This document shows, piece by piece, positions 29,736 through 55,060 of a stretch of 64,000 nucleotides of DNA. The position numbers and the translations under genes are program-made. The stretch is taken from NCBI RefSeq assembly GCF_024508295.1, contig NZ_CP101990.1, positions 2,232,001 through 2,296,000 of the forward strand. The letters are read 5' to 3'. Under the pieces are notes generated by a model that had not been told where the DNA came from, ran no database searches, and worked only from the letters and a program-made list of their open reading frames with translations. This DNA is from Aeromicrobium duanguangcaii. GTDB lineage: Bacteria > Actinomycetota > Actinomycetes > Propionibacteriales > Nocardioidaceae. The stretch's first letter is position 1. Every line of letters begins with the position of its first letter.

Positions 29736-29760
29736 GTACCCCGGCGGGCCCGCATCATGC
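29736..29760 (-). promoter_or_regulatory. SigB-like promoter GCAT-15-GGGTAC (haem-oxygenase-like operon)
   Basis: On the minus strand GCAT (29757-29760), 15 bp and GGGTAC (29736-29741) precede the start codon at 29701 by 34 nt. This is one of ten matches to GNNT-15-GGGTAC in the window and stands back to back with the one at 29786-29810. Confidence 0.7.
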
Positions 29761-29785
29761 GGCCCTTGCGCCATGTTCTCCCGAT

Positions 29786-29810
29786 GCATGAGGCGGCGCG
29801 AGTTGGGTAC
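29786..29810 (+). promoter_or_regulatory. SigB-like promoter GCAT-15-GGGTAC (FAD-Rieske operon)
   Basis: GCAT (29786-29789), 15 bp and GGGTAC (29805-29810) stand 33 nt before the ATG at 29844. With the facing promoter at 29736-29760 it forms a divergent SigB-like pair. Confidence 0.7.
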
Positions 29811-29843
29811 GCCGTGGGTGTCCGACACCACAGGAGGATCACC

Positions 29844-30017
29844 ATGAGCACGCCGCACCCCGAATCCCCGGCCGAGGGCCCCGATCCCGACGACCCGTCG
29901 ACCCAGCCCGACCAGCCCATCTCCCCCGACGAGCCCACCGCTCCGGGCGCCGAGGGCCAGCCCCAGGGCGTCCCCAACATCCCGGACAACCCGACCGATC
30001 CCGTCTTCCCGAGCTGA
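29844..30017 (+). CDS. Small proline- and acid-rich protein
   Basis: This 57-residue protein (MSTPHPESPAEGPDPDDPST...) consists almost wholly of Pro, Asp, Glu, Ser and Thr and should be disordered. I do not recognise a family. AGGAGG stands 6 nt ahead of the ATG. The FAD-Rieske gene starts 7 bp downstream, so it leads that operon. The strong ribosome site and the SigB-like promoter suggest that it is a real, abundant stress product. Confidence 0.65.
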   Translation: MSTPHPESPAEGPDPDDPSTQPDQPISPDEPTAPGAEGQPQGVPNIPDNPTDPVFPS

Positions 30018-30024
30018 GGTGCCG

Positions 30025-31527
30025 ATGACCGACGACAACCGCCCCGTCTGGCAAGTCCCCGCCGACGTAGGACCGAGCGATGAGCTGCCCGAAGCCTGCG
30101 AGGACCTCGTCATCGGGGCGGGGGTCGTCGGCCTGACGACTGCCCTGCTGCTCGCTCGGGCCGGCCGCCGCGTCTGCGTGGTCGAGGCCCGCTACGTCGG
30201 CGCCGGATCGACCGGGCACAGCAGCGCGAAGATCAGCCTGCTGCAGGGCACGCGACTGTCGAGCCTGATGAAGGACCACGATCGCGAGACCGTCCGCTCC
30301 TACGTCGAGTCGAACCGCGCCGGCTACGACTGGCTCACGAGCTTCGCCGACGAGCACGGCGTGCGGATCGATCGCCGGCCCGCTGTGACGTTCGCGGCGA
30401 ACCCCATGCAGGTGTCGTCCGCTCGGTCCGAGTACGTCGCCGCCAAGGCGATGGGGCTGCCCGTCGAGTGGACCGAGGACGACCTCGACCTGCCCTTCCC
30501 GACGCACGGAGCGGTCGTCCTGCCCCATCAGGCGCAGGTCGACCCCGGCTCCCTGCTGCAGGCCCTCGCCGAGCAGTTCCGCGAGAACGGCGGCGTCCTC
30601 GTCGAGGGGGCGCGGGTCGAGCACGTGAGCAAGGTCGGCCATCCCCGGGCCACGCTGACCGACGGCCGGGCGATCACCGCCGAGTCGATCGTGGTGGCGA
30701 CCGGCGCCCCCATCCTCGACCGCAGCCTGGCGTTCAGCGACCTCGAGCCCCAGCGCTCCTACGTCGTCGCCTACGAGATGGGCAACCCGCCCCGCGTCAT
30801 GGCGCTGTCGGCCGGGAGCCCGTCGGTGTCCATCCGCGACGCCTTCACCGACGACGGCCGGTCCGTCCTGCTGGTCGGCGGTTTCGGCCACGGCGTCGGC
30901 CGCACCTCCTCCGAGCGCGAGCACGTCGAAGCGATCCGCACCTGGGCCACCGAGCACTTCGCCGGCGTCCAGGAGACGGCCGTCTGGTCGGCCCAGGACT
31001 ACACCACCGGCAACGGCCTGCCGCGCTACGGCCGGATGCCCCGCGGCGGCGGCAGGATCTGGTTCGCGACGGGCTTCGCCAAGTGGGGCTTCACCAACGG
31101 CACGGCGGCCGCCATCGCCATCTGCGAGGACATCCTCGGCTCGCCCGTCCCGTGGATGCGCGACGTCGCCGAGCACTCGTCGCCGCTGGTCTCGGTGCGA
31201 GGCCGCGCGCTCATCAACGCCGGCGTCGCCCGCGAGACGGCCACCGGCCTGGCGCGCGCCGTCACGACCGGACACCGGGCACTCGAGCCGGGCCAGGGCG
31301 CGGTGCACCGCGAGGGGGCGCACATCGTGGCGGAGTCCCGCACGGAGTCCGGCGTCTGCCGCGTGTCGGGCCTGTGCACCCACTTGGGTGGCGTCCTGCG
31401 CTGGAACGACGTCGAGCAGTCGTGGGACTGCCCGCTGCACGGATCGCGCTTCTCGGCCGAGGGCGAGGTGCTGAACGGTCCCGCCACCCGGTCGTTGGCC
31501 CGCCTCGACGACGAGCCGAACGGCTGA
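30025..31527 (+). CDS. FAD-dependent oxidoreductase with C-terminal Rieske domain
   Basis: This 500-residue protein has an N-terminal DAO-type FAD domain (LVIGAGVVGLTTALLLARAG, residues 29-48; GHSSAK next) and a C-terminal Rieske [2Fe-2S] domain with CTHLG and CPLHGS as cluster ligands (about residues 450-480). The fusion is known as a family in bacteria; the physiological substrate is uncertain. I chose the ATG at 30025, with GAGG 5 nt ahead, over the GTG two codons upstream. It follows the small protein gene by 7 bp, and the DUF72 gene follows by 8 bp, all behind a SigB-like promoter. Confidence 0.88.
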   Translation: MTDDNRPVWQVPADVGPSDELPEACEDLVIGAGVVGLTTALLLARAGRRVCVVEARYVGAGSTGHSSAKISLLQGTRLSSLMKDHDRETVRSYVESNRAGYDWLTSFADEHGVRIDRRPAVTFAANPMQVSSARSEYVAAKAMGLPVEWTEDDLDLPFPTHGAVVLPHQAQVDPGSLLQALAEQFRENGGVLVEGARVEHVSKVGHPRATLTDGRAITAESIVVATGAPILDRSLAFSDLEPQRSYVVAYEMGNPPRVMALSAGSPSVSIRDAFTDDGRSVLLVGGFGHGVGRTSSEREHVEAIRTWATEHFAGVQETAVWSAQDYTTGNGLPRYGRMPRGGGRIWFATGFAKWGFTNGTAAAIAICEDILGSPVPWMRDVAEHSSPLVSVRGRALINAGVARETATGLARAVTTGHRALEPGQGAVHREGAHIVAESRTESGVCRVSGLCTHLGGVLRWNDVEQSWDCPLHGSRFSAEGEVLNGPATRSLARLDDEPNG

Positions 31528-31535
31528 GGACGCAG

Positions 31536-32357
31536 GTGGCCGACGCCCGCTACCTGATCGGCGTGAGCGGCTGGAGCTACGCGTCCTGGCGCGGCGACTT
31601 CTACCCGAAGGGACTCGTCCAGCGGCGCGAGCTCGAGCACGTGGCCAGTCGCCTGACCGCCGTCGAGGTCAACGGCACCTTCTACTCCCTGCAGCGGCCG
31701 ACCACCTTCGCGCGGTGGGCCGAGCAGACGCCGCCGGGGTTCTCCTTCGCCCTCAAGGGGAGCCGCTACGTCACGCACCTGCTGAAGCTGGTGAACGTCG
31801 AGACCGCGCTGGCCAACTTCTTCGCCTCCGGTGTGCTGGAGCTGGGTGAGCGGCTCGGCCCGATCGTGTGGCAGCTGCCGGCCACGTCGGCCTACGACCC
31901 CGACGTGCTCGGCCGGTTCCTCGCCCTCCTGCCGCGCACCATGGCCGAGGCGGCCCGGCTGGCCGAGCGGCACGACGACCGACTGGGCCCGGACCGCGCC
32001 GTCACGCAGACCCGGGTCGACGGCCCGATCCGGCACGCCCTCGAGGTGCGACACCCCTCGTTCACCTCACCCGATTACGCCGCCGTGCTGCGCGACCTCG
32101 GCGTCGCCGGCGTGTGGACCGACGCGCCGAAGCCCTGGCCGGTGCTCGACCTGCCGTCCTCGTCGATCGCCTACGCGCGCCTGCACGGACACACGCGGCT
32201 GTACGCCAGTCGCTACTCGGACCGGTCCCTGGACGAGTGGGCCGCGTGGTGCCGACGCCGGCACGACGAGGGACTCGACGTCCACGTGTACTTCGACAAC
32301 GACTCCGAGGGGCATGCGCCGCACGACGCGGAGCGACTTCTGCAGCGACTGCGGTGA
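31536..32357 (+). CDS. DUF72 domain protein
   Basis: This 273-residue protein shows the DUF72 features: an opening VSGWSYASWRGDFYP strand-loop, EVNGTFYSLQ and F-ALKGSRYVTH segments, and the terminal VYFDNDSEGHAPHDA motif. DUF72 proteins adopt a TIM-barrel fold, but their activity is unsettled. The GTG at 31536 has GAGG 6 nt ahead and lies 8 bp after the FAD-Rieske gene, so it is the third gene of that operon. Confidence 0.85.
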   Translation: MADARYLIGVSGWSYASWRGDFYPKGLVQRRELEHVASRLTAVEVNGTFYSLQRPTTFARWAEQTPPGFSFALKGSRYVTHLLKLVNVETALANFFASGVLELGERLGPIVWQLPATSAYDPDVLGRFLALLPRTMAEAARLAERHDDRLGPDRAVTQTRVDGPIRHALEVRHPSFTSPDYAAVLRDLGVAGVWTDAPKPWPVLDLPSSSIAYARLHGHTRLYASRYSDRSLDEWAAWCRRRHDEGLDVHVYFDNDSEGHAPHDAERLLQRLR

Positions 32358-32468
32358 GAGCGCTGGGGCCGGGCATTCGCTCCTGTTGCCGACCTCTCGA
32401 CCCCGTGTGAAAGTGGAAATCGGTTGAGCCCCCCAGCCACTCGGTACCTCCAGCGATGCGGAGTATCC

Positions 32469-33149
32469 ATGACTGCGCTGTACGACCACCCCCCTCTCTC
32501 GGCTCCTGACGACCTCGTGCTGGACCATCTCAGCCTGGCGACCGCCTTGGCTCGCCGTTTCTCGGGACGCGGAGTCGATCCCGAGGATCTCGAGCAGGTC
32601 GCGCGACTGGCCCTGGTCAAGGCCGCCCGACGTTACGACCCCGATCAGGGGCCCTTTCCGCCGTTCGCCACCGCCACCATCCAGGGCGAGCTGAAGCGAC
32701 ACTTCCGGGACCGTGCGTGGATGGTGCGTCCGCCGCGCCGCGTGCAGGAGGTCCAGGCGCTCATCGTGAGCGAGCAGCTCCCCGAGATCACGTCCGCCAA
32801 CCTCGAGCAGATGGCCGCTCGGATCGGTGTCGTGCCCGAGGAGCTCCGGGCCGCGGTCGTGGCGCGTGGGTGCTTCCAGCCCGACTCGGTCGACGACCTC
32901 AGCCACGGCCGTCGCGAGTTCGCCCACACCGACGACAACCTCGACTTCCTCGTGGAGTGGATGTCCGTCGCCGGGCCGTTGCGCGAGCTGGCCCGCGAGG
33001 AGCGTCAGCTCCTGCACTGGAGGTTCGTCGAAGGGCTCACCCAGCAGGCGATCGCCGATCGCCTCGGGATCAGCCAGATGCAGGTGTCGCGCCGGCTCTC
33101 GAAGGTGCTGTCCACCGTGCGTCACCATCCGGACCTCGCCGCGGCCTGA
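32469..33149 (+). CDS. RNA polymerase sigma factor, SigB/SigF/SigG family
   Basis: This 226-residue sigma-70 factor has region 2 (LARRFSGRGVDPEDLEQVA, FPPFATATIQGELKRHFRD, MVRPPRRVQE), region 3 and a region 4 helix-turn-helix (TQQAIADRLGISQMQVSRRL). Lengths and region 2 match the actinobacterial SigB/SigF stress group, which reads GTTT/GNNT and GGGTAC/T promoters. No anti-sigma (RsbW) or anti-anti-sigma gene is adjacent, unlike in typical sigF loci. The ATG has GGAG 5 nt ahead. A weak match to its own consensus (GGTT-16-CGGTAC) lies upstream, so autocontrol is possible but unsure. Confidence 0.9.
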   Translation: MTALYDHPPLSAPDDLVLDHLSLATALARRFSGRGVDPEDLEQVARLALVKAARRYDPDQGPFPPFATATIQGELKRHFRDRAWMVRPPRRVQEVQALIVSEQLPEITSANLEQMAARIGVVPEELRAAVVARGCFQPDSVDDLSHGRREFAHTDDNLDFLVEWMSVAGPLRELAREERQLLHWRFVEGLTQQAIADRLGISQMQVSRRLSKVLSTVRHHPDLAAA

Positions 33150-33176
33150 CCGCAGCGCATCGCTTCATCCGTCGGT

Positions 33177-33202
33177 GCCCTCTCCCCCACCAGGGAGGGG
33201 GC
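33177..33202 (+). terminator. Hairpin after the sigma factor gene
   Basis: GCCCTCTCCC (33177-33186) pairs with GGGAGGGGGC (33193-33202) with one G-T pair and a 6-nt loop, 27 bp past the stop. Confidence 0.6.
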
Positions 33203-33247
33203 GTCGTCGTGTTTGCGGGCTTGTCGCCACCGCCGCACCGTTCTACT

Positions 33248-33263
33248 ATGCAACGAGTTGCAT
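33248..33263. promoter_or_regulatory. Palindrome ATGCAAC-GA-GTTGCAT upstream of the NMO-like gene
   Basis: Seven-bp arms flank GA. TACTAT (33244-33249) would serve as -10 and overlaps the left edge, so this is a likely repressor site for the enzyme at 33295. The repressor is not identified. Confidence 0.5.
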
Positions 33264-33294
33264 TAAGTTCCCATCGCGCCCTCGGAGGTCGACC

Positions 33295-34248
33295 ATGTCC
33301 CTGCCCGCCGTCCTGCAGAACCGCCTGTCGATCCCGGTGGTGGCCTCACCGATGTTCATCGCCTCGGGGCCGGACCTGGTGATCGCGCAGTGCAAGGCCG
33401 GCATCGTCGGCTCCTTCCCCGCGCTGAACGCCCGGCCGGCGTCGCTGCTGGGCGAGTGGCTCGACCGGATCGAGGGCGAACTGGCGGGCACCGACGCCGC
33501 GCCGTTCGCGGTGAACCAGATCGTGCACCGGTCGAACGCCCGGCTCGAGGAGGACATGGCCACGATCGTCGAGCACCGCGTGCCGATCGTCATCACCTCG
33601 CTGGGAGCACGTCCGGAGATCAACGACGCGGTCCACTCCTACGGCGGCATCGTCCTGCACGACATCATCAACGACCGGTTCGCCCGCAAGGCGATCGAGA
33701 AGGGCGCCGACGGCCTGATCGCCGTGGCGGCCGGCGCCGGCGGACATGCGGGCACGCTGTCCCCCTTCGCCCTGATCCAGGAGATCCGCCAGTGGTTCGA
33801 CGGCCCCCTGCTGCTGTCGGGCTCCATCGCGCACGGCCGCTCGGTGCTGGCCGCGCAGGCCGCCGGTGCGGACCTGGCCTACGTCGGCTCGGCGTTCCTG
33901 GCGACGGACGAGGCGAACGTCGTCGACGCCTACAAGCAGATGATCGTCGAGAGCTCCGCCGACGACATCGTCTACTCCAGCCTCTTCACCGGCGTGCACG
34001 GCAACTACCTGCGCGGCAGCATCGAGGCCGCCGGGCTCGATCCCCTCAACCTCCCGCAGGGCGACCCCACGACGATGAACTTCGGCTCGGGCGGCACGAA
34101 CGACAGCAAGGCCTGGAAGGACATCTGGGGTGCCGGCCAGGGCCTGGGCGTGATCGACGCGACCGTCCCCGCCGCCGATCTGGTGGCCCGGCTGCGTCGC
34201 GAGTACGAGGAGGCGCGGCGGGAGCTGCTGGCCGCCGTCCCGGTCTGA
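33295..34248 (+). CDS. Nitronate monooxygenase-like flavin oxidoreductase
   Basis: This 317-residue FMN TIM-barrel protein resembles the NMO/2-nitropropane dioxygenase family. It has VVASPMFIASGPDLV near the N-terminus, AAGAGGHAG (phosphate-binding loop, near residue 145) and LLLSGSIAHG, GSAFLATDE segments. Family members oxidise nitronates; many in actinobacteria lack a proven substrate. The ATG has GGAGG 6 nt ahead. A palindrome sits on the promoter (33248-33263). Confidence 0.83.
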   Translation: MSLPAVLQNRLSIPVVASPMFIASGPDLVIAQCKAGIVGSFPALNARPASLLGEWLDRIEGELAGTDAAPFAVNQIVHRSNARLEEDMATIVEHRVPIVITSLGARPEINDAVHSYGGIVLHDIINDRFARKAIEKGADGLIAVAAGAGGHAGTLSPFALIQEIRQWFDGPLLLSGSIAHGRSVLAAQAAGADLAYVGSAFLATDEANVVDAYKQMIVESSADDIVYSSLFTGVHGNYLRGSIEAAGLDPLNLPQGDPTTMNFGSGGTNDSKAWKDIWGAGQGLGVIDATVPAADLVARLRREYEEARRELLAAVPV

Positions 34249-34362
34249 ACCCCGGCCGCCGCCCGGGGCGGGAGTCCTCGTCTCGGGGCGGTAAGGCAGG
34301 CTTGATCTGCAAGGACGAAATCCGAGCGTGACAATGGGACGTACCGAAGCAGACAGGAATGA

Positions 34363-35712
<1,350 letters not shown>

Positions 35713-35730
35713 CGTCTCACCGAGACAGCG

Positions 35731-35760
35731 ACGCCCCGGATCCTCGCGGATCCGGGGCGT
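35731..35760. terminator. Convergent terminator, 13-bp stem with 4-nt loop
   Basis: ACGCCCCGGATCC and GGATCCGGGGCGT pair exactly around TCGC, between gdhA (+) and the DUF5302-like gene (-). Confidence 0.78.
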
Positions 35761-35777
35761 TCGTCGTACTCCGGGAA

Positions 35778-35942: not shown

Positions 35943-35952
35943 TGCGGCCTCC

Positions 35953-36645
35953 TCAGGTTGTCTCCAACGTAGCCCCAGCACCGGCCGGCACGGAAGCGGT
36001 GTCCCCTCGGCTCGACCGGGCGACCCGGTAGGCCGGGGCGCGGACCCGACTGACCCACGCGTAGTTCCGCAGTCCGGGCAGCGGCCGGCGGATCGGGTCG
36101 TACGACGGCTCCTCGTCGGTCTCGTGCAACAGCCGCAGGTGCGCGAAGCCGATCCACTCGCCCGTCCCCTCGGCACGCAGCAGCACGTACTCCTCGGGCT
36201 GCGTCTGCACGGCCGCGAGCAGGATCGGTCCGGCCGGACCGCGGTACGGCACCAGGGTCGAGGTCAGGTGCCGGCTGGACGGTCGGACGGGACGCAGCAG
36301 GAAGCGGCTGAGTCGGCCCGCGCCCGTGCTGCCCAGCAGCAGGTCGGCCCCCTGCTGATCGGGCAGCCGGATCGCCACACCCTGCAGGTCCGGCCACCCG
36401 TGCGGCAGGCCGATCGCCGCGGACACGCGCACGAGGGCGGGATCGCGGCCCGGCTCGTCCAACCACGGCACGCCCGTCGGCAGGAGGGTTCCGACGCGGA
36501 CGACCTCGGCCTGCCACACCGATCCGCGCGGGTGCAGCGGCTTCGGCGCGGACCGCAGGGCCGAGCCGAGTCGCGTCGCTGCGGCGAGCACGTGGCCGGT
36601 TCCCGTGGCCACGGCCCCGGTCGCGGACTCCATGAAGCCGTTCAC
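35953..36645 (-). CDS. Catalase-fold-like protein of unknown activity
   Basis: This 230-residue protein shows the pattern LPHGWPDLQGVAIRLPD...ADLLLGS, which resembles the core of haem catalases (RGxAxxFxDxxGxxDLVxxN). However, the catalytic His region and the RxFxYxDxQ haem-ligand segment are not visible, and it is far shorter than catalase. I believe it belongs to a small family sometimes labelled phosphodiesterase; this is uncertain. The GTG overlaps the epimerase stop (GTGA), so it is coupled to that gene and would be transcribed from the same SigB-like promoter. Confidence 0.5.
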   Translation of the reverse strand: MNGFMESATGAVATGTGHVLAAATRLGSALRSAPKPLHPRGSVWQAEVVRVGTLLPTGVPWLDEPGRDPALVRVSAAIGLPHGWPDLQGVAIRLPDQQGADLLLGSTGAGRLSRFLLRPVRPSSRHLTSTLVPYRGPAGPILLAAVQTQPEEYVLLRAEGTGEWIGFAHLRLLHETDEEPSYDPIRRPLPGLRNYAWVSRVRAPAYRVARSSRGDTASVPAGAGATLETT

Positions 36646-37640
36646 GGGTGCAGCGGTGGCATCGTGCTGCCGGCGCGCTGCGGCATGCCTTCCAACAGGG
36701 CGTTGACCGCGTCGCGGCCGGAGTGACGGGGCGTCCAGCCCAGCTCGGTCCGGGCACGGCCGGTCGACATCAGGGGGACGTGCATCAGGGCGTTGAACAG
36801 GCTGCCGGGGACCGGCACGGCGTGCAGCCGCCACGCCGCGTCGAGCCCTCGCTGGACCAGTCCCGGTGGAACCTCGACGGTCTTCGCGCCCATGAGGTCG
36901 CCGATCTCGTCCCGGCGCAGCACGCCCTCCCCCGCCAGGTTGAACGCGCCCGACACGGGACGCTCGACGGCGGCCGCGATGGCTCGCGCCACGTCCCCCG
37001 CGTGGACGGCCTGCAGCCGCAGTCCCGAGGGGACGGGGACGATCGGGATGCGGCGGCGGTCGAGCAGCGCGGGCCGGGCCAGCGCTCCGCCGAAGATCCG
37101 GCGCTGCTCGCTGGCTGCGGAGCGCTGGAACGCGAAGGCGGGCCGCAGCCGCACGACCCGGGTGTCCGGGTGCGAGGCCTCGAACCCGTCGAGCGTGCGC
37201 TCGACGTAGGCCTTCTCGCGGCAGTACGTCGCCTCGGACGCCCCGTCGGTCAGCCAGGTCTCGTCGACCGGGGTGTCGTGGTCGACCGGTGAGTACGCCG
37301 CCACGGACGACGCGCACACCACCGCCGGCACGCCCACCTCGGCGACCGCGTCGAGCACCCGGCGGGTGCCCACCGCGTTGGTCCGCCACGTGACGTCCTG
37401 CCGGTGCGTGGGCTGGAACTTCCACGCCAGGTGCACCACGGCGTCGACTCCCGTGAAGATCGTGGTGAGGTCGTCGCGCGACACGTCCGCGGGGTGCCAG
37501 CGCACCGAGGCGGCGCCCGCGTTCTCGACCTCGGGGCGGCGCCGCGCGAGCGCGATCACCTCGTGCTCCCCGTCCGCCGACAACTCGCGCAGGGCTGCCG
37601 ATCCCAAGTTCCCGGACGCGCCGGTGATGACGACCTTCAT
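36642..37640 (-). CDS. NAD-dependent epimerase/dehydratase (extended SDR)
   Basis: This 332-residue extended SDR starts MKVVITGASGNLGSAAL, keeps VVHLAWKF, CASSVAAYSP, a YxxxK site (YCREK) and VRLRPAFAF, as in nucleotide-sugar epimerases. GTGT-15-GGGTAC lies upstream with only 9 nt between GGGTAC and the ATG, so the message should be leaderless. The adjoining glycosyltransferases (37669-41616) read in the same direction upstream of it, so sugar modification is plausible; the substrate is unknown. Confidence 0.83.
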   Translation of the reverse strand: MKVVITGASGNLGSAALRELSADGEHEVIALARRRPEVENAGAASVRWHPADVSRDDLTTIFTGVDAVVHLAWKFQPTHRQDVTWRTNAVGTRRVLDAVAEVGVPAVVCASSVAAYSPVDHDTPVDETWLTDGASEATYCREKAYVERTLDGFEASHPDTRVVRLRPAFAFQRSAASEQRRIFGGALARPALLDRRRIPIVPVPSGLRLQAVHAGDVARAIAAAVERPVSGAFNLAGEGVLRRDEIGDLMGAKTVEVPPGLVQRGLDAAWRLHAVPVPGSLFNALMHVPLMSTGRARTELGWTPRHSGRDAVNALLEGMPQRAGSTMPPLHP

Positions 37641-37649
37641 GCGGTGGAC

Positions 37650-37674
37650 GTACCCGTCCGGTCCGTCCTCACAC
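37650..37674 (-). promoter_or_regulatory. SigB-like promoter GTGT-15-GGGTAC (epimerase)
   Basis: GTGT (37671-37674), 15 bp and GGGTAC (37650-37655) on the minus strand. The gap to the ATG at 37640 is 9 nt. The -35 side overlaps the 3' end of the GT2 gene. Confidence 0.65.
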
Positions 37675-41708: not shown

Positions 41709-43985
<2,277 letters not shown>

Positions 43986-44022: not shown

Positions 44023-44047
44023 GTACCCACGTCCCGGCGATCCATGC
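44023..44047 (-). promoter_or_regulatory. SigB-like promoter GCAT-15-GGGTAC (catalase)
   Basis: GCAT (44044-44047), 15 bp and GGGTAC (44023-44028) on the minus strand, 37 nt before the katE start codon. It forms a divergent pair with 44058-44082. Confidence 0.72.
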
Positions 44048-44057: not shown

Positions 44058-44082
44058 GAATCACCCGACCGCGATCGGGTAC
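44058..44082 (+). promoter_or_regulatory. SigB-like promoter GAAT-15-GGGTAC (small acidic protein)
   Basis: GAAT (44058-44061), 15 bp and GGGTAC (44077-44082) lie 24 nt before the ATG at 44107. Confidence 0.62.
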
Positions 44083-44106: not shown

Positions 44107-44289
44107 ATGAACCACGACCCCCACGATTCCGAGCACGAGGACCAGGACGAGGCGTCCGGCACCGTCAGCGAGAGCTCGGCGGACCCCACTCCCCCGGCCA
44201 CCGACGCGACCACGTCCGAGGACGTGCACGACACACCCCAGGAGCCGACCCGGCCCGACGTCGCGGACCAGGACGAGAACCACGCCTGA
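44107..44289 (+). CDS. Small acidic, probably disordered protein beside catalase
   Basis: This 60-residue protein (MNHDPHDSEHEDQDE...) has about one Asp or Glu in three residues, several His and no hydrophobic core. No family is recognised. AAGGAGG stands 6 nt ahead of the ATG, a very strong ribosome site. It faces the katE gene across a pair of SigB-like promoters and converges on the CsoR-type gene. The high acid and His content would allow metal or water binding, but that is guesswork. Confidence 0.65.
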   Translation: MNHDPHDSEHEDQDEASGTVSESSADPTPPATDATTSEDVHDTPQEPTRPDVADQDENHA

Positions 44290-44653: not shown

Positions 44654-44675
44654 ATTCACACGAATCGAGAGAACC

Positions 44676-45226: not shown

Positions 45227-45234
45227 GCCCGCGC

Positions 45235-45259
45235 GTTTGGGTTCATTACCCGCGGGTAC
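45235..45259 (+). promoter_or_regulatory. SigB-like promoter GTTT-15-GGGTAC (YbdK-type ligase)
   Basis: GTTT (45235-45238), 15 bp and GGGTAC (45254-45259) are the best match to the classical SigB/SigF consensus in the window. The gap to the GTG at 45269 is 9 nt. TACGTT (45257-45262) overlaps and could act as a housekeeping -10, with 6 nt to the start. Confidence 0.75.
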
Positions 45260-45268
45260 GTTGGGCCC

Positions 45269-46351
45269 GTGCACACCGTCGGAATCGAAGAAGAGCTGTT
45301 CGTCGTCGACGACGAGGGGCGGTTGGTCGCCGGTTCCGAGGCGGTGTTGCGGGCCCATCGTCGGCTCGAGCCCGGCGATGAGCTCGACCACGAGCTGTTC
45401 CTGCAGCAGGTCGAGATCCAGACTGATGCCCACGCGGACCCCGACGCGCTGCACGACGACCTGCTCGCGCAGCGGTCCTCCGCGGTCTCGGCGGCGCGCG
45501 CTGCCGGGCTCCACCTGGCCGCCGTCCCCGTCGACGTCCTCGGCGGGACGGAGCCGGCTCCGACCCCGAAGTCGCGCTACGAGGAGATGATCTCCCGCTA
45601 CGGCGAGATCGCGCGCAACGGGATGACCTGTGGCATGCACATCCACGTGCAGGTTCCCGACGAGGACGCCGTGCGCGTCATCGACAGCCTCCGCCCGTGG
45701 ACGCCGATCCTCACCGCCCTGTCGGCGAACGCCCCCTTCTTCAACGGCCGCGACACCTCGCACGCCAGCTGGCGCGGGCACCTGTGGGACACCTGGCCCA
45801 CCGCCGGTCCGGTCGAGGCGTTCGGCGACCACGCCACCTACCGGGCGATGGTCGACGGATGGATCGCCTCGGGCGCGGCCCTGGACGAGCACATGGTCTA
45901 CCTCGACGCCCGTCCGGCCGAGAGCTACCCGACCGTCGAGGTGCGTGTCGCCGACGTCTGCACCGAGGTCGACGACGCCCTGCTCGTCGCCGAGGTCACG
46001 CGCGGCCTCGTCGCGACCATCCTGTCCGGCGGGCTCGACACCGGCAGCTGGCGCCTCGAGACGCTCAAGGCCGCCCGCTGGCGGGCCCGGCACGACGGCC
46101 TCGAGGGCGCCCTGCTCGATCCCACGACCGGGACGTTCGTGGCCGCCGAGCAGGCCCTCGAGTCGCTGCTCAAGGCCACCCACCAGGGCCTCGCCGAGAC
46201 GGGCACGACCGAGCGCGTCACCGACGGCGTCCATCGCCTGCTCACCAGCGGCAACGGAGCCGTCCGCCAGCGCGCCGTCGCCGGCGCGGACCTCGACCTC
46301 GCCGCCGTCATGGCGGACCTGATCCACCGCACGAACCCGAAGCACGACTGA
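45269..46351 (+). CDS. Carboxylate-amine ligase, YbdK/GCS2-type
   Basis: This 360-residue protein belongs to the glutamate-cysteine ligase 2 (YbdK) family. It begins with VGIEEELFVV (the GIEEE motif) and has MTCGMHIHVQVPD and EVRVADVCTEVDD in the ATP-grasp-like core. YbdK has weak glutamate-cysteine ligase activity. Actinobacteria make mycothiol rather than glutathione, so the true product is uncertain. The start is GTG with a 9-nt leader behind the SigB-like promoter. A nearly perfect 14-bp stem follows the stop. Confidence 0.85.
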   Translation: MHTVGIEEELFVVDDEGRLVAGSEAVLRAHRRLEPGDELDHELFLQQVEIQTDAHADPDALHDDLLAQRSSAVSAARAAGLHLAAVPVDVLGGTEPAPTPKSRYEEMISRYGEIARNGMTCGMHIHVQVPDEDAVRVIDSLRPWTPILTALSANAPFFNGRDTSHASWRGHLWDTWPTAGPVEAFGDHATYRAMVDGWIASGAALDEHMVYLDARPAESYPTVEVRVADVCTEVDDALLVAEVTRGLVATILSGGLDTGSWRLETLKAARWRARHDGLEGALLDPTTGTFVAAEQALESLLKATHQGLAETGTTERVTDGVHRLLTSGNGAVRQRAVAGADLDLAAVMADLIHRTNPKHD

Positions 46352-46382: not shown

Positions 46383-46399
46383 CGGTGCGTCGGCGTCGG

Positions 46400-47578
46400 T
46401 CAGGGCTTGAAGAGCACCTTCACGGTGTTGTCGGTCTTCTCCTGGAAGCTCTTGTAGACGTGCGGCGCCTCGTCCAGCGGCACGCGATGGGTCGCGAAGT
46501 CGCCCAGACCCAGCGGGTCGGACGAGTCCTCGGCGAGCGGCTTGACGTCGTCGACCCAGTGCTTCACGTTCGCCTGGCCCATCTTGAGCGTCACCTGCTT
46601 GTCGAACAGGATCTGCAGCGGGACCGGGTCGACCGTGCCGGCGTAGACGCCGATCAGCGAGATCGTGCCGCCGCGGCGGACCGCGTCGACGGCCAGGTTG
46701 AAGGCGCTCATCCGGTCGACGCTCACGGTCGTCATGGCCTTACGGGCCAGGAAGTCGGGCAGGAACCCCACGGCGGTCTGCGCCGCGGTGGCCACCGGCG
46801 ACCCGTGGGCCTCCATGCCGACCGCCTCGATGACCCCGTCGGCGCCACGGCCACCCGTGGCGTCACGGACGATGTCGGCCACGTCGACCTTGGTGACGTC
46901 GTAGGTCTCGGCGCCGCGCGCAGCGGCACGCGCCAACCGCTCGGGGACGAGATCCACGGCGATGACGCGGATGCCCTCGAGCAGCGCCAGCCGCACGGCC
47001 ATGTCGCCGATCGGGCCCAGCCCGATCACCAGGAGCGTGTCGCCCGGGTTGACCTGGGCGTACCGCAGCGACTGGTACGCCGTGGGCAGCACGTCGGACA
47101 GGTACACGAAGTGCTCGTCATCGAGATCGGACTCGATCTTGATCGGCCCGTAGTCGGCGTGCGGCACGCGCAGCAGCTCGGCCTGGCCACCCGGGACCGC
47201 GCCGTAGAGGCTGCTGAAGCCGAACAGGGCTGCGCCCATGCCCTGGTCGCGCACCTGCGTCGTCTCGCACTGCGTCTGCAGGTTGTGGCTGCACATCCAG
47301 CACGAGCCGCAGGCGATCTGGAACGGGACGACGACCCGGTCGCCGACCTGCAGGTTGCTCACGCCCGAGCCGGTCTCGACGACCCGGCCCATCGGCTCGT
47401 GGCCCAGGATGTCGCCCGGCGTCATGAACGGTCCCAGCACCTCGTAGAGGTGCAGGTCCGAGCCGCACAGGCCCGTCGTCGTCACCTCGATGATCGCGTC
47501 GGTGTCCTGCTGGATCGTCGGGTCGGGCATCTCCTCGACTCGCACGTCGCGCTTGCCCTGCCAGGTCACGGCCTTCAT
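46400..47578 (-). CDS. Zinc-dependent alcohol/aldehyde dehydrogenase A
   Basis: This 392-residue MDR dehydrogenase has the catalytic-zinc segment GLCGSDLHLYE and GHEPMG, structural-zinc Cys in ACGSCWMCSHNLQTQC and the cofactor fold VIGLGPIGDMAV. Its length and the LYEVLGPFMTPGDILGHE sequence suit the glutathione-independent formaldehyde dehydrogenase-like/threonine-dehydrogenase-like group. A SigB-like promoter lies 41 nt upstream. It is similar in type to the dehydrogenase at 55803-56948, which also stands behind a SigB-like promoter. Confidence 0.87.
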   Translation of the reverse strand: MKAVTWQGKRDVRVEEMPDPTIQQDTDAIIEVTTTGLCGSDLHLYEVLGPFMTPGDILGHEPMGRVVETGSGVSNLQVGDRVVVPFQIACGSCWMCSHNLQTQCETTQVRDQGMGAALFGFSSLYGAVPGGQAELLRVPHADYGPIKIESDLDDEHFVYLSDVLPTAYQSLRYAQVNPGDTLLVIGLGPIGDMAVRLALLEGIRVIAVDLVPERLARAAARGAETYDVTKVDVADIVRDATGGRGADGVIEAVGMEAHGSPVATAAQTAVGFLPDFLARKAMTTVSVDRMSAFNLAVDAVRRGGTISLIGVYAGTVDPVPLQILFDKQVTLKMGQANVKHWVDDVKPLAEDSSDPLGLGDFATHRVPLDEAPHVYKSFQEKTDNTVKVLFKP

Positions 47579-47619
47579 CTATCCACCTCTTGCGTCGAGA
47601 ATCTCGGTCTTCGAAAGAC

Positions 47620-47644
47620 GTACCCATCACCGGTGGGACTACAC
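47620..47644 (-). promoter_or_regulatory. SigB-like promoter GTGT-15-GGGTAC (dehydrogenase A)
   Basis: GTGT (47641-47644), 15 bp and GGGTAC (47620-47625) on the minus strand, overlapping the stop of the upstream permease gene. The gap to the ATG at 47578 is 41 nt. Confidence 0.65.
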
Positions 47645-50262: not shown

Positions 50263-50364
50263 CGCGGTTCCCTTGCGTGTGGACGGACCCGGGTGGTCCG
50301 TGCATGTTTCACGCTAGGAACGAACGGCCGTCCGATCGAGCCGCTTCGGGAGGCGTTCGCGAAG

Positions 50365-50382
50365 TTGCATCCTTCGATGCAA
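50365..50382. promoter_or_regulatory. Inverted repeat between the response regulator and ABC genes
   Basis: TTGCATC (50365-50371) and GATGCAA (50376-50382) flank CTTC. It stands about 50 bp upstream of the -10 box of the ABC operon, where an activating response regulator would bind. A weak terminator role for the upstream gene is the alternative. Confidence 0.45.
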
Positions 50383-50389
50383 GCGGTGC

Positions 50390-51073
50390 TCAGCGCTCGC
50401 GCGGGCCGGACGGATCGATCGTCACGATGCGGTTCTGGTAGGCCCAGACCACCGCCTGCAGGCGTGATCGCACCCCGAGCTTGGGCATCATCCGCGCCAG
50501 GTGCGACTTGACCGTCGAGACCTCGAGCACGAGCTCGCGGGCGATCTCCTCGTTCGACATCCCCTCGGCCAGCAGCATGAGGATCTCGCGCTCGCGGGGG
50601 GTCAGCAGGTCGTCGGCGCGCTCGGCGGTCACCGGCTGCAGCCGCCGGCGGCTGTTGAACTCGGCGATGATGCGCACGGTCAGCGTCTCGTCGATCGTGC
50701 CGTGCCCCTCGGCGACGCGGCGGACCGCTCGCACGATGATCTCGGGCTCGGCGTCCTTGAGCAGGAAGCCCGCGGCCCCGGCCTCGAGGGCGCCGAAGAC
50801 GTAGTCGTCGAGGTCGAAGGTCGTGAGGATGACGACCGGGACCTCGGGGTCGGCGTCGGGGCCCGACAGCTCGCGGGTGACGCTGACGCCGTCGAGGCCG
50901 GGCATCCTGATGTCGAGGCAGGCCACGTCGGGACGCAGCGACCGCGCCAGCTCGAGAGCCTCACGACCGTCGGACGCGACGCCCACGACCTGGATGTCGG
51001 GCTCGGCGCCGAGCAGCGCCGACAGGCCCGCCCGGACGAGCGGCTGGTCGTCCGCGATGAGGACCCGGATCAT
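50390..51073 (-). CDS. NarL/LuxR-type response regulator
   Basis: This 227-residue regulator has a receiver domain (Asp8, Asp9, phosphoacceptor Asp54 in CLDIRMPGLD, LLKD with Lys) and a C-terminal LuxR helix-turn-helix (LTPREREILMLLAEGMSNEEI, in part, near residue 160). Its ATG overlaps the stop of the histidine kinase gene (ATGA). The ABC exporter genes follow, so it is a likely activator of them. Confidence 0.92.
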   Translation of the reverse strand: MIRVLIADDQPLVRAGLSALLGAEPDIQVVGVASDGREALELARSLRPDVACLDIRMPGLDGVSVTRELSGPDADPEVPVVILTTFDLDDYVFGALEAGAAGFLLKDAEPEIIVRAVRRVAEGHGTIDETLTVRIIAEFNSRRRLQPVTAERADDLLTPREREILMLLAEGMSNEEIARELVLEVSTVKSHLARMMPKLGVRSRLQAVVWAYQNRIVTIDPSGPRER

Positions 51074-52320
51074 GCGTGCTCCCCTTCGGTCGTCGCCGCA
51101 CCCGGTTCGCGTGGCAGCGTCAGGCGCACCCGCCAGCCGCCGTCGACCGTGGGGCCGTGCTCCAGCCGCGCCCCGACGAGATCGGCCCGCTCCTGCATGC
51201 CGCGCAGGCCGAAGCCGCCGCTGGAGGCGGCCGGGACCTCGGACGAGGCCGCGTTGTCGACGGTCACGACGACCTGATCGGGGGCGCGGTCGTCGACCTC
51301 GACCCGGCACGGCGCGCCGGGCGCGTGCGACCGCGCGTTCGCGAGCGACTCCTGCACCATCCGGTAGGCGGCCAGCTGGGCCAGGGGGCCGACCCCGGCG
51401 GCGGTCGGCAGCCCGGTCGGCCCGTGGAGCACGACGAGCTCGACACCTCCGGGTGCCGCTGCGGCCTGCTCGACCAGGGCGGGGAGGGTCTCGATCGACT
51501 CGACCGACGTGTGGGCGGCGCCGTCGTCCCGCAGCAGGCCGACCAGGCGGCGGAGGTCGTCCAGCACGGCGCGGCTCTGGCCGCGAACCTCGCGCACGGC
51601 GGCGCGGGCCGCCTGCGGATCGGTCTCGATCTGCCGGTCCACCGCGGCCAGCATCACGGCGATCCCCGACAGGTGGTGGGCGGCGATGTCGTGCAGCTCG
51701 CGCGCCATCCCCGTGCGCTCGCGGGCGATGGCGGCCTCCCACCGCGCCTCCTGCTCGCGGACGATCGCCTCGGCCTCACTGCGGTGGGCCTGTGCGGCCG
51801 CCCGGCGTGATGCGACGAAGACCGCGACGGCGGCGGGTGCGGCCACGACGACGGCCGCCTGCAGGACTCCGGCGACGATCACCGACATGCTCCCGGCCGA
51901 GCCGCCCAGACCCGGCGCGATGATCGCGGCCGCGACCAGGCCCGCCGTTCCGACGAGGGCCCACCGGACGGACTCGGCCTGCGAGACGCTGACGGCGCGA
52001 TAGACCGCCACCACCACCGCCAGTGACGTCAGGCCCGGCGCCGCCTCTCCGGCGACGAGTGACACAGCGAGGCCCACGGCGGCGACTGCCAGCGGCACGA
52101 TGGCGGGGCGGGTTCGGGCGCCGAGCAGCACGAGTGCCTGCAGCGTCAGCCCGGCCAGCAGCAGCCACCAGCGCGCCTCGTCGGGCCCAGGGACGTCGCC
52201 CGTGCCCTCGCTGTCAGCGGCAGAGACGAGAGGCAGGGCCACGAGACCGGCGAGCGCGACGATCCAGGTGATCCCGGCCGCGAGCGCATCACGGGAACGC
52301 GGCGTCACTGCGGGGGTCAC
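51070..52320 (-). CDS. Sensor histidine kinase, HisKA_3 type
   Basis: This 416-residue protein has about six N-terminal membrane segments (residues 15-170), the HisKA_3 dimerisation/phosphoacceptor segment MARELHDIAAHHLSG with His210 and a C-terminal ATPase with the GGFGLRGMQERA G-box. It lacks a large external sensor domain, so it may sense the membrane or work with the ABC transporter, as is usual for this type. The GTG at 52320 gives the full-length protein; a second GTG lies four codons on. Confidence 0.88.
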   Translation of the reverse strand: MTPAVTPRSRDALAAGITWIVALAGLVALPLVSAADSEGTGDVPGPDEARWWLLLAGLTLQALVLLGARTRPAIVPLAVAAVGLAVSLVAGEAAPGLTSLAVVVAVYRAVSVSQAESVRWALVGTAGLVAAAIIAPGLGGSAGSMSVIVAGVLQAAVVVAAPAAVAVFVASRRAAAQAHRSEAEAIVREQEARWEAAIARERTGMARELHDIAAHHLSGIAVMLAAVDRQIETDPQAARAAVREVRGQSRAVLDDLRRLVGLLRDDGAAHTSVESIETLPALVEQAAAAPGGVELVVLHGPTGLPTAAGVGPLAQLAAYRMVQESLANARSHAPGAPCRVEVDDRAPDQVVVTVDNAASSEVPAASSGGFGLRGMQERADLVGARLEHGPTVDGGWRVRLTLPREPGAATTEGEHA

Positions 52321-52344
52321 CGGGACATCGTCGCATCGACGGGT

Positions 52345-52471
52345 TCAGTCGGTCCGCTCCCGGGCGAGGAACGAGAACTTTCCGTCCTGCTCCAGCACGG
52401 CCCACTCCAGGTCGTCGAGGCTGCGGATGCCCTCGGCGCGGGCGCAGCCACCCTGTCGATCGAGCGACAGG
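52345..52471 (-). pseudogene. Probable remnant of a DUF421 (YetF-like) protein C-terminus
   Basis: An open frame with no good start codon encodes about 40 residues ending in TGA at 52345. The segment GIRSLDDLEWAVLEQDGKFS resembles the C-terminal domain of DUF421 membrane proteins. No membrane part precedes it: the DUF488 gene occupies that space in another frame. I read this as a decayed 3' end left by a deletion or insertion. The homology is judged by eye. Confidence 0.4.
52452..52471 (-). terminator. Short hairpin directly after the DUF488 stop
   Basis: CCTGTCG and CGACAGG (7-bp stem, 6-nt loop) lie immediately past the DUF488 stop codon. Confidence 0.45.
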
Positions 52472-53029
52472 TCAGTGCTCGCCGACCGCGTCCGCCTCCG
52501 GGTAGACGAGCCCCTCCCCCGCGATGCGAGCCCCGGCCGAGGGCTCGTGCGGCTGACGGCGCCCGTCGGGCATGACGTGCTCGACGGGCAGGTCGTGCAC
52601 CAGCATCGCGACGTCCGAGATGAGCCGGCGGTGGCACCGCCACCAGACGAGCTCCGAGCACATGACAGCGACGCGAGAGCTCCCGGCGAGCTCGACGACC
52701 TCGGACATCGCGGCCTGGAACTCCGTCGTCCGGGTGTGCGCGGCGTAGGCCCGGAAGGCCTCGACCCGCCACCACCCGTCCACAGCCTCGTCGCCCGGTG
52801 GGACGCGGCGCCGGCCGCCCAATCGCTCCTGCCAGACGTAGTCGATCCCCTCGAGGGGCAGGAAGACATCGAGGGAGTCGCGGGAGACCTCGGGATTGCG
52901 CCGGCTGCCGGGGAACCGGCGGACGTCGACGAGCGTCTGGACTCCGGCAGCGCGCAGACGATCGGCCAGCTCATCGCGGGTGGACGTGCCGTGACCGATC
53001 GTGAGCAACGGGCCGGCGGAAGCGCTCAT
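52472..53029 (-). CDS. DUF488 domain protein
   Basis: This 185-residue protein has the DUF488 pattern: LLTIGHGTSTRDEL at the N-terminus, LVDVRRFPGSRRNPEVS, and the Cys/His-containing MCSELVWWRCHRRLI near residue 122. The function is unknown. The ATG has GGGAG 4 nt ahead. A short hairpin follows the stop, and then a probable remnant of another gene. Confidence 0.85.
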   Translation of the reverse strand: MSASAGPLLTIGHGTSTRDELADRLRAAGVQTLVDVRRFPGSRRNPEVSRDSLDVFLPLEGIDYVWQERLGGRRRVPPGDEAVDGWWRVEAFRAYAAHTRTTEFQAAMSEVVELAGSSRVAVMCSELVWWRCHRRLISDVAMLVHDLPVEHVMPDGRRQPHEPSAGARIAGEGLVYPEADAVGEH

Positions 53030-53116
53030 CGCGCTCCCACCGGCCCGTCGTTCAACGCCGAGCGCGCCACGGTCCGCGTCCCTCCACGCCGGACCGGGCG
53101 CCTCGCGCGTGCCGGA

Positions 53117-53596
53117 TCAGTGACCGGTGTGGCGGCCGGTGTCACGACCCGTGGTGCGGCCGAGGTCGCGGGCCTCACGGCTGAGCAGCACGCCCAGTCC
53201 GATCATCGCGACTGCCAGCACGAAGTGCAGCCAGTCGTCGGCCGTGTTCAAGGGGATGAAGTTGGCGTCGTGGTGCTTGTCGATGAACAGGCCGTAGAGC
53301 CACAGCAGCGCGTAGATGACGCCGCCGCCGATGAGGTACGCCCGAGCGGTGCTCCACGCACGCGCCAGAGCCAGTCCGGCGACACCGAACAGCAGGTGGA
53401 CGATGTTGTGCAGGATCGACACCTGGAAGATCCCGAGCAGCTTGGCCTCGGACTCGTGGCCGGCGAACTTCATCGTGTCGTAGTCACTGGTGATGCCCGG
53501 GATGAAGCCCAGGATCCCCACCACCAGGAACAGGGCGCCGACCACCGTGGCGGCGGTCTGCATCTTCGTGGCGGTCATGGATGAGGGTGTTGCCAT
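53117..53596 (-). CDS. DUF4383 membrane protein
   Basis: This 159-residue protein has four hydrophobic segments (about residues 14-33, 58-78, 87-107 and 120-140) and the HNIVHLLFGVAGLALAR motif of DUF4383. The C-terminal tail is rich in Arg, Thr, Gly and His (TTGRDTGRHTGH). Related proteins are small and of unknown function. GGAAGGAAG lies a few bases ahead of the ATG at 53596. A SigB-like promoter stands 32 nt upstream. Confidence 0.82.
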   Translation of the reverse strand: MATPSSMTATKMQTAATVVGALFLVVGILGFIPGITSDYDTMKFAGHESEAKLLGIFQVSILHNIVHLLFGVAGLALARAWSTARAYLIGGGVIYALLWLYGLFIDKHHDANFIPLNTADDWLHFVLAVAMIGLGVLLSREARDLGRTTGRDTGRHTGH

Positions 53597-53628
53597 GATC
53601 TTCCTTCCGTCGTTGGGACAAGTGGCGG

Positions 53629-53653
53629 GTACCCGTGGCCCCTGGAAACATGC
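53629..53653 (-). promoter_or_regulatory. SigB-like promoter GCAT-15-GGGTAC (DUF4383)
   Basis: GCAT (53650-53653), 15 bp and GGGTAC (53629-53634) on the minus strand, 32 nt before the DUF4383 start. It faces away from the promoter at 53702-53726. Confidence 0.7.
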
Positions 53654-53701
53654 GGTTTTCTGAACAAGTTCCACTGAGCAGCCGCTCAGTGGCACTCCCC
53701 T

Positions 53702-53726
53702 GTGTAAGAGGGCGGACGCGGGGTAC
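53702..53726 (+). promoter_or_regulatory. SigB-like promoter GTGT-15-GGGTAC (DUF2243-CtaG operon)
   Basis: GTGT (53702-53705), 15 bp and GGGTAC (53721-53726) lie 24 nt before the GTG at 53751. AGGAGG stands at 53741-53746. Confidence 0.68.
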
Positions 53727-53750
53727 TCGTGGGGCAGACGAGGAGGTCAC

Positions 53751-54230
53751 GTGACCGGAGAACGAGTGGACCCCGCGACCCGTGGACGTTCTGTGAACAC
53801 CCGATCCGCGTGGGGAGGGGTGCTCATCGGCCTGGGCCTGGTGGCGTCGATCGACGAGATCGTGCTGCACCAGCTGCTGCGCTGGCACCACTTCTACGAC
53901 AAGTCGACCTCCGAGATGGGCCTGATCTCCGACGGCCTGTTGCACGCCGCCACGGTCGTGGCCATGGTGGCCGGGTTCTTCGTCCTGATCGACGTCCGCC
54001 GGGCCGGGTCGCTCGTGCCCCGACAGGCGTGGGCGGGACTGCTGCTCGGGATGGGCGCCTTCCAGCTGTGGGACGGGACGATCAACCACAAGCTGCTCGG
54101 ACTGCACGAGATCCGCTACGGCGTCGACCTCCTCCCGTACGACCTGACGTGGCTGGTCTTCGCCGTGATCCTGCTGGGCGCGGGGGCACTGCTGCTCTGG
54201 CGCCGGCCCGCCGCGAGCCGCCCGTCGTGA
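53751..54230 (+). CDS. DUF2243 membrane protein
   Basis: This 159-residue protein has four transmembrane segments and the HQLLRWHHFYDKS motif with clustered His, as in DUF2243. It also has WDGTINHKLLGLHEIRYG. Its His pattern suggests haem or copper contact. It is often beside a CtaG-like gene, as here, with a GTGA overlap. AGGAGG lies 4 nt ahead of the GTG start. Confidence 0.83.
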   Translation: MTGERVDPATRGRSVNTRSAWGGVLIGLGLVASIDEIVLHQLLRWHHFYDKSTSEMGLISDGLLHAATVVAMVAGFFVLIDVRRAGSLVPRQAWAGLLLGMGAFQLWDGTINHKLLGLHEIRYGVDLLPYDLTWLVFAVILLGAGALLLWRRPAASRPS

Positions 54231-55060
54231 CCACGCACGCCGGTCACCACGCCGCCACGGGCGCCGATCCGGGCGCCTGGCTGCTGCCGCTGGTCGTCGT
54301 GCTGGTCACGGCCGGGATCTACCTGGTCGGGACGAGGCGGTGGCAACGGCGCCGAGGCCGAGCCTGGGACCCGTGGCGCACCGCCAGCTGGATCGCCGGC
54401 GCGGTAGCCATCGCGCTGGCGCTGTCGCCGCTGACGGACTCCCCCACGGCGCGGGCCCACATGGTCCAGCACCTGCTGCTCGGCATGCTGGCACCCGTCG
54501 GCCTGGTGCTGGGCGCTCCCGTGACCCTGTTGCTCGGGGTGCTGCGGCCCGACGCCGCGCGCGTCGTGACGGCGGTCCTGCGGACGCCCGCCTTCCACCT
54601 GCTCTCGCATCCGGTGACGGCGGCGGTGTTGAACGTCGGCGGCATGTTCGTGCTGTACCTGACGCCGCTGTACGCCCTGTCGACCGAGAGCACGGCCGTG
54701 CACCACCTCGTCCACGCGCACTTCCTCATCGCCGGCTACCTGTTCGCGTGGGCGATCGCGGGCCCGGACCCGGCCCCGCGACGACCTGGGATGGCGACGC
54801 GGGTCGTGGTCCTCATCACTGCCGGCGCGGCTCACGCCTACCTCGCCAAGCTGCTCTACGCGCGCGCCGGCGAGTTGCCCCCGGGCACCGACTACGCGGT
54901 CGCCGACATGCAGGCGGCGGCCCAGTGGATGTACTACGGCGGGGACGTCGTCGACGTCATGCTCGCGGTCGCCCTGTTCGCGACCTGGCTGAGGCGCCGA
55001 TCGAGATCGCGGGAAAACCTCGGTGTCGGCTCCGCCGTGGTGGGTACACCGCGGACATGA
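54227..55060 (+). CDS. CtaG-type cytochrome c oxidase assembly protein
   Basis: This 277-residue protein has about seven transmembrane helices and conserved His residues in ARAHMVQHLLLGMLAPVG and VHHLVHAHFLIAG, as in the caa3 CtaG family. Such proteins deliver or hold copper for the oxidase or take part in copper uptake. It overlaps the DUF2243 gene (GTGA) and the hemerythrin gene (ATGA). The C-terminal part carries an internal SigB-like promoter for the hemerythrin gene. Confidence 0.82.
   Translation: MTTHAGHHAATGADPGAWLLPLVVVLVTAGIYLVGTRRWQRRRGRAWDPWRTASWIAGAVAIALALSPLTDSPTARAHMVQHLLLGMLAPVGLVLGAPVTLLLGVLRPDAARVVTAVLRTPAFHLLSHPVTAAVLNVGGMFVLYLTPLYALSTESTAVHHLVHAHFLIAGYLFAWAIAGPDPAPRRPGMATRVVVLITAGAAHAYLAKLLYARAGELPPGTDYAVADMQAAAQWMYYGGDVVDVMLAVALFATWLRRRSRSRENLGVGSAVVGTPRT
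55023..55047 (+). promoter_or_regulatory. Internal SigB-like promoter GTGT-15-GGGTAC (hemerythrin)
   Basis: GTGT (55023-55026), 15 bp and GGGTAC (55042-55047) lie inside the 3' end of the CtaG gene, 9 nt before the ATG at 55057. The 9-nt gap also occurs at 45269 and 37640. Confidence 0.6.

Follow-up and report, generated by a model that had tools for sequence, protein, structure and literature searches.

Ten copies of a two-part element, GNNT separated by 15 bp from GGGTAC, occur between positions 29736 and 55047 of a 64,000 nt stretch of the genome of Aeromicrobium duanguangcaii (contig NZ_CP101990.1, positions 2,232,001 to 2,296,000; hereafter the window), each lying just upstream of a start codon. 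The ten sites very probably serve as promoters for a single sigma factor of the SigB/SigF type (group 3), the foremost candidate being the product of the gene at 32469–33149, which lies in their midst. SigB/SigF-type promoters have a −35 box of GNNT or GTTT and a −10 box of GGGTA(C/T), with a spacer of 14–16 bp. All ten sites have this arrangement, and the spacer is always 15 bp. The predicted promoters and the sigma factor gene are listed below with their window coordinates, strand and retention of the element in orthologs, either in four close relatives (78–89% identity in the sigma factor) or in five distant relatives (53–56%).

29736–29760 (−): GCAT-N15-GGGTAC, leadered; faces the haem-oxygenase-like gene 28718–29701, with a CDGSH-like open reading frame (ORF) behind it; 4/4 close and 4/5 distant orthologs.
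29786–29810 (+): GCAT-N15-GGGTAC, leadered; faces a small disordered protein gene, 29844–30017, and probably also serves 30025 onward; 4/4 close orthologs.
32469–33149 (+): divergent SigB/SigF/SigG-type sigma factor, proposed reader of the ten promoters; Sigma70_r2 and r4 domains; orthologs in the four close relatives.
37650–37674 (−): GTGT-N15-GGGTAC, start codon 9 nt on (leaderless class); epimerase-like gene 36642–37640; element and 9 nt distance in 4/4 close orthologs.
44023–44047 (−): GCAT-N15-GGGTAC, leadered; long HPII-like catalase gene 41709–43985; 4/4 close orthologs.
44058–44082 (+): GAAT-N15-GGGTAC, leadered; small disordered protein gene 44107–44289; 2/2 reciprocal orthologs.
45235–45259 (+): GTTT-N15-GGGTAC, GTG start 9 nt on (leaderless class); YbdK-type carboxylate-amine ligase gene 45269–46351; 3/4 close orthologs, with a 16 bp spacer.
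47620–47644 (−): GTGT-N15-GGGTAC, leadered; zinc-dependent dehydrogenase gene (ZnADH1) 46400–47578; 8/8 orthologs (4 close, 4 distant), one with another spacer.
53629–53653 (−): GCAT-N15-GGGTAC, leadered; DUF4383 membrane protein gene 53117–53578 (or from an earlier ATG 32 nt downstream); 2/2 orthologs found.
53702–53726 (+): GTGT-N15-GGGTAC, leadered; DUF2243 gene from GTG 53751 to 54230, and CtaG-like gene 54227–55060; 2/2 orthologs found, one with a 16 bp spacer.
55023–55047 (+): GTGT-N15-GGGTAC, ATG 9 nt on (leaderless class); hemerythrin gene 55057–55806 and second zinc dehydrogenase gene 55803–56948; 2/2 close orthologs found.

The −35 box of site 37650 overlaps the end of an upstream glycosyltransferase gene, and site 55023 sits inside the 3′ end of the CtaG-like gene.

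Searching the window for GNNT-N15-GGGTAC returned exactly these ten matches, the same coordinates and strands as in the preliminary description of this DNA, compared with a mean of 0.54 and a maximum of 3 in 100 shuffled versions. GGGTAC occurs 20 times in the window. Copies inside genes had been described as lacking GNNT at the 15 bp spacing, and this is true of all ten others (1002, 1560, 3569, 7630, 8282, 9324, 13754, 42626, 53627 and 56298), three of which have GNNT at 13, 14, 19 or 20 bp. Read directly, the start codon lies 9–41 nt past GGGTAC at every site, as first described. Automatic gene calling places nine of the ten at a gene start; at the tenth (53702) the caller picked a later start, and the count is complete if GTG 53751, 24 nt on and behind GAGGAGG, is included. 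In seven of the promoters the leader carries a Shine-Dalgarno-like stretch (e.g., AGGAGG before 29844, AAGGAGG before 44107 and the GAGGAGG just mentioned), and at the remaining three (37650, 45235 and 55023) the start codon follows exactly 9 nt past GGGTAC with no Shine-Dalgarno sequence between.

Stretches around the orthologous sigma gene were compared in the four close and five distant relatives, with orthologs defined as reciprocal best hits within those stretches and the element allowed a spacer of 14–16 bp. Of 32 target-gene orthologs in the close relatives, 31 have the element (27 with N15 and four with another spacer in this range), and it is absent from all 112 orthologs of the remaining window genes; the corresponding figures in the distant relatives are 8/10 and 4/33. 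The only miss in a close relative is the YbdK gene of G037, which keeps GGGTAC and the 9 nt distance but is without GNNT, and both distant misses are in G128 (haem-oxygenase-like protein, 44% identity; hemerythrin, 29%). Orthologs of the DUF4383, DUF2243 and hemerythrin genes were found in the stretches of only two of the four close relatives. Together with the orientation of the sites, their fixed spacer and their position at gene starts, this conservation supports the initial interpretation of the sites as promoters.

Persistence of the letters by chance or through shared ancestry, in DNA that has simply not diverged, has next to no likelihood. One of the relatives, G037, is indeed close (93% identity in the haem-oxygenase-like protein), but in eight orthologous promoter sets over five genomes, comprising 36 rows and 66 pairs, the spacer is 51% identical, the upstream flank 49% and the nine bases past GGGTAC 48%, while the element can be read in all rows. 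The rows were chosen by the presence of the element, so that its 100% identity in them is by selection, and the independent figure is the 31/32 given above. Ancestry would also leave unexplained why no non-target ortholog in the close relatives carries the element, and why it is found at distant orthologs of the ZnADH1 and haem-oxygenase-like genes that share 53–67% identity. Within gene sets, the two variable letters of GNNT are 82% identical, suggesting that each gene keeps its own version of the −35 box, such as GCAT for the haem-oxygenase-like gene and GTGT for the epimerase and ZnADH1 genes.

The sites could also be read as primary-sigma (sigma-A) promoters, with GGGTAC contributing to a TANNNT −10 box. 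The YbdK site of the window reads TACGTT, and a match outside the window, at genome position 92922, reads TACGCT. Yet a TANNNT box fits only one of the ten window sites, just one having T at the sixth place of the box; T is at that place in none of the 36 ortholog rows (which do not include YbdK), and both the GGG and the GNNT 15 bp away would be left without a role. A primary-sigma origin is accordingly very unlikely for the set, and was rejected for the nine window sites without TANNNT. It was retained for 92922 (L054:1523–1547), which lies 9 nt before a gene for a holin-X-type membrane protein and has a very similar counterpart in G118, a relative in which no sigma match was detected; this site was dropped from the regulon and is probably a leaderless primary-sigma promoter.

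The start codon distance of 9 nt recurs across the genus. An ATG at 9 nt past GGGTAC was found at 161 sites in 37 genus genomes (at least one in 35 of the 37), compared with 10 sites for an ATG at 8 nt, 26 at 10 nt, and 9 for the 9 nt pattern read backwards; these counts cover ATG starts only, and some of the 161 appear by eye to be coding repeats of one conserved sequence (e.g., near-identical in G091, G097, G103 and G136). The other 112 genomes of the family contain 367 such sites. In every ortholog read, the 9 nt distance is kept while the nine bases themselves change (epimerase in five genomes, YbdK in five, with two copies in G086, and hemerythrin in three), which suits a transcript starting at or beside the start codon. 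The messenger RNAs (mRNAs) from sites 37650, 45235 and 55023 are therefore probably leaderless, judging from the exact 9 nt spacing in each, and their predicted start is the tenth base after GGGTAC. No statement of a 9 nt rule was found in the literature searched, a limited negative, as the sources were covered in part. The sharp distance to so many start codons also suits a −10 box better than an operator for a DNA-binding regulator. A pair of conserved blocks at variable spacing would fit such a regulator as well, but the element in the window is asymmetric, is always aimed at a gene and resembles published SigB-type promoters, making an operator highly improbable.

At the position corresponding to 44058, G056 and G086 have a site with an ATG 9 nt on, although the gene was not confirmed as a reciprocal ortholog. 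Back-to-back pairs of leaderless-class promoters, with their −35 ends abutting exactly, occur in three relatives (G144:C1:1432001–1432074, G126:C1:878824–878897 and G140:C1:324695–324768).

The preliminary description placed a SigB/SigF-family sigma gene in the middle of the sites, and 32469–33149 is the best match in the genome to the SigBFG model TIGR02980 (about 156 bits); it scores 143 bits against PRK07122 (SigF), 93 against TIGR02941 (SigB) and 56 against FliA/WhiG. Its closest solved structures are 8x6g ('RNA polymerase sigma factor', 82 bits) and 1l0o ('sigma factor', 56 bits), followed by 8hkc (RpoH, 38 bits) and 8jzt ('SigF', region 4 only, 35 bits). The SigBFG search gave four matches in the genome, at 155.8, 129.5 and 109.7 bits and a 28-bit fragment of 60 positions; the second and third are taken to be sigma factors of the primary type.

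The sites are also found near the relatives of this gene. Among 148 of the 9 nt sites of the genus (those among the 150 listed of the 161, minus two in G118), 43 are within 30 kb of a sigma gene, where 3.7 are expected, and 30 are within 10 kb (expected 1.2). In about 1.5 kb around the best 30 sigma loci there are 49 distinct N15/N16 sites (62 matches before removal of double counts), compared with 7 when the sequence is reversed, 6 for spacers of 9/10 and 7 for spacers of 20/21. Reading of these SigB/SigF-type promoters by another sigma factor of the cell is unlikely. The 32469–33149 product is divergent and its gene bears no such site itself, which would fit a different reader, but the other two full-length SigBFG matches are lower and the fourth is a fragment (in a survey that excluded ECF-type sigma factors), and the sites cluster around 32469–33149 and its relatives.

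Several observations weigh against the assignment of the ten sites to this sigma factor, or limit it. Its score is below the curated TIGR02980 cut-off (155.8–156.5 versus 234 bits), for which reason it is called here a divergent SigBFG relative and not a certified member. No anti-sigma gene adjoins it, the neighbours being DUF72 and nitronate monooxygenase-like genes. Candidate partner-switching genes of the RsbW, RsbV and SpoIIE types were found elsewhere in the genome, one of each: a small ATPase (82439), a small STAS frame (201951) and a SpoIIE (694056). The first of these, RsbW-like and stand-alone, occurs in 48 of the 49 genus genomes, G118 and G145 (both without a sigma match) among them, and so is not a specific partner of 32469–33149; its candidacy as a dedicated anti-sigma factor is unsupported. 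In the clade of the window, the 1.5 kb or so around the sigma gene contains no GNNT-GGGTAC site (zero at five loci), leaving self-activation unsupported. The bare pattern is no more frequent than its control: there are 35 matches in the genome versus 43 for the same pattern read backwards, and 1597 versus 2217 in 49 genus genomes, of which eight exceed their own control. The pattern is therefore informative only in combination with position, clustering and conservation. Related genomes, moreover, do not supply independent 9 nt sites or sigma loci, so that the P values computed for the clustering near sigma genes are too favourable. Lastly, a sigma match (at 1e-20) is missing in 11 of 149 family genomes, six of them less than 90% complete, and the 9 nt counts in these are 2 in each of G118, G017 and G032, 4 in G034, 3 in G042, 1 in G045, and 0 in each of G145, G009, G036, G095 and G119, against a mean of 3.7 elsewhere; only two of them belong to the genus (G118 and G145, among 37), so that the presence/absence link is weak. 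G118 is 99% complete.

The 100 bp block upstream of the sigma gene (32369–32468), containing GTTGCCGA, GTGTGA, CGGTTGA and CAGCC, is conserved in five genomes and has no GGGTAC.

Ten of the 35 matches in the genome (3,133,793 bp, one contig) lie within 25.3 kb, and placing 35 sites at random 20,000 times never put more than 6 in any such interval. Ten of the 25 sites outside the window were placed at gene starts by the automatic criterion and 15 were not. One of the ten (605989) was discarded because it lies within a gene start and has no start codon just downstream; with 92922 also removed, about eight further plausible promoters remain. The description of a clustered regulon holds for the ten sites, but the regulon is plausibly not confined to the window. 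By Pfam, the nine outside genes (605989 excluded) encode, besides the holin-X-type protein at 92922, a metallo-beta-lactamase-fold protein, a Polyketide_cyc2/AHSA1 protein, a pyridine-nucleotide oxidoreductase, a luciferase-like monooxygenase, a thioesterase and a TPP enzyme, and two have no family. An N16 spacer also gives 35 matches in the genome, but none of the 30 examined is at a gene start, and a 16 bp spacer was rejected as a second class here. Relatives use it for YbdK and some other genes.

Most of the products named at the outset were confirmed by Pfam/NCBIfam matches: Haem_oxygenas_2 (28718), the YbdK-type carboxylate-amine ligase (45269), both zinc dehydrogenases (46400 and 55803), hemerythrin (55057) and, with HPII as its sole NCBIfam match and a score below that model's cut-off, the catalase (41709). 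The same searches identified the epimerase (36642), DUF4383 (53117), DUF2243 (53751–54230) and CtaG-like (54227) proteins, and gave no family match for the small proteins 29844 and 44107. The CDGSH label, by contrast, was given by eye from the cysteine pattern of the ORF at 28506–28781 (−), behind the haem-oxygenase-like gene, and this ORF has no NCBIfam match.

The nearest known system, from the parts of the literature covered, is the SigF regulon of Mycobacterium smegmatis, which has similar gene content and is partly clustered (PMC4694148). Its promoters have a GTTT-type −35 box, a spacer of 14–19 and GGGTA; loss of sigF lowers the levels of catalases, hemerythrin, dehydrogenases, epimerases and a carboxylate-amine ligase, and a dense SigF-dependent block runs from MSMEG_1758 up to sigF itself (MSMEG_1804) (PMC4694148). 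This overlap in products, along with the SigBFG best match, favours a SigB/SigF-type reader, as originally put forward. The two systems differ in that the M. smegmatis −35 box is mostly GTTT (PMC4694148) and sigF is co-transcribed with the anti-sigma gene rsbW (PMC7693655), whereas here the −35 box is GNNT, no anti-sigma gene adjoins and all ten spacers are 15 bp. By our count in part of its promoter table, 14 M. smegmatis promoters are 8–11 nt from the start codon; the word 'leaderless' does not occur in the main text of that paper (PMC4694148).

The SigB homologues of Streptomyces coelicolor have a role in osmotic stress; their promoters share with the window sites a −35 box of GNNT (for the SigB/L/M group) and a GGG-type −10 box, in which three G residues are nearly invariant and the fifth place is an A (PMC8346170). 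There, nine SigB homologues have overlapping promoters, whereas one SigB/SigF-type gene was found here, and the main text of that paper does not use the word 'clustered' (PMC8346170). As for the Streptomyces consensus quoted in the preliminary description, the GNNT −35 box is stated in this source as far as covered, but the exact form GNNTN14-16GGGTAC was not found in the literature searched. A precedent for the leaderless class is sspA of S. coelicolor, a SigF-dependent promoter with the mapped transcription start at the start codon; it is, however, a single sporulation gene and not a clustered stress regulon (PMC4282423, covered in part).

Overall, the locus looks like a SigB/SigF-type stress regulon island, ordinary in kind, well preserved in detail and representing a known kind of regulation. 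The sequences themselves show the sites, with their positions, spacing and conservation, the 9 nt peak and the family of the sigma factor. We infer the pairing of sigma factor and promoters, the start points and any anti-sigma control from the features described, and the stress signal and induction from gene content only. The holoenzyme of the 32469–33149 sigma factor would read the −35 GNNT and −10 GGGTAC boxes, here always 15 bp apart, and would switch on a block of oxidative and general stress genes consisting of catalase, the haem-oxygenase-like and CDGSH-like proteins, hemerythrin, the zinc dehydrogenases, the YbdK ligase, and membrane and small disordered proteins. Seven promoters would give mRNAs with a leader and a Shine-Dalgarno sequence, while three would start at or next to the start codon and give leaderless mRNAs. 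Such a scheme assigns a compact regulon, open to testing, to a divergent SigB/SigF-type factor from neither Streptomyces nor Mycobacterium, predicts exact start points for the probably leaderless stress mRNAs, and names the small disordered proteins, DUF4383 and DUF2243 as likely stress genes.

A wider generalisation, that SigB-like sigma factors across the genus sit in self-contained regulon islands with a share of promoters putting the first transcribed base at the start codon, is tentative and somewhat doubtful. If true, leaderless stress mRNAs could be translated by a route differing from that of housekeeping mRNAs, and a gene may switch between forms, as with the site for 44107, which is leadered here and has its ATG 9 nt on in G056 and G086.

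A related sequence in the window, GTCT-N16-GGGTAT at 23355–23380 (−), lies ahead of gene 21563–23167. Similar GGGTAT stretches in G056 and G086 run into the same following bases, and this is possibly another type of element.

A GAF-ANTAR regulator gene is beside or near the sigma gene in four relatives (L021:603–1328 (−), L022:2300–3028 (+), L029:3025–3651 (+) and L045:2583–3272 (+)), with a similar-looking protein seen by eye in L034 and L038, and none next to the sigma gene of the window. In four genomes of the genus, G048, G019, G121 and G083 (L026, L031, L028 and L033), a pair of divergent sigma genes from this family is separated by about 1 kb.

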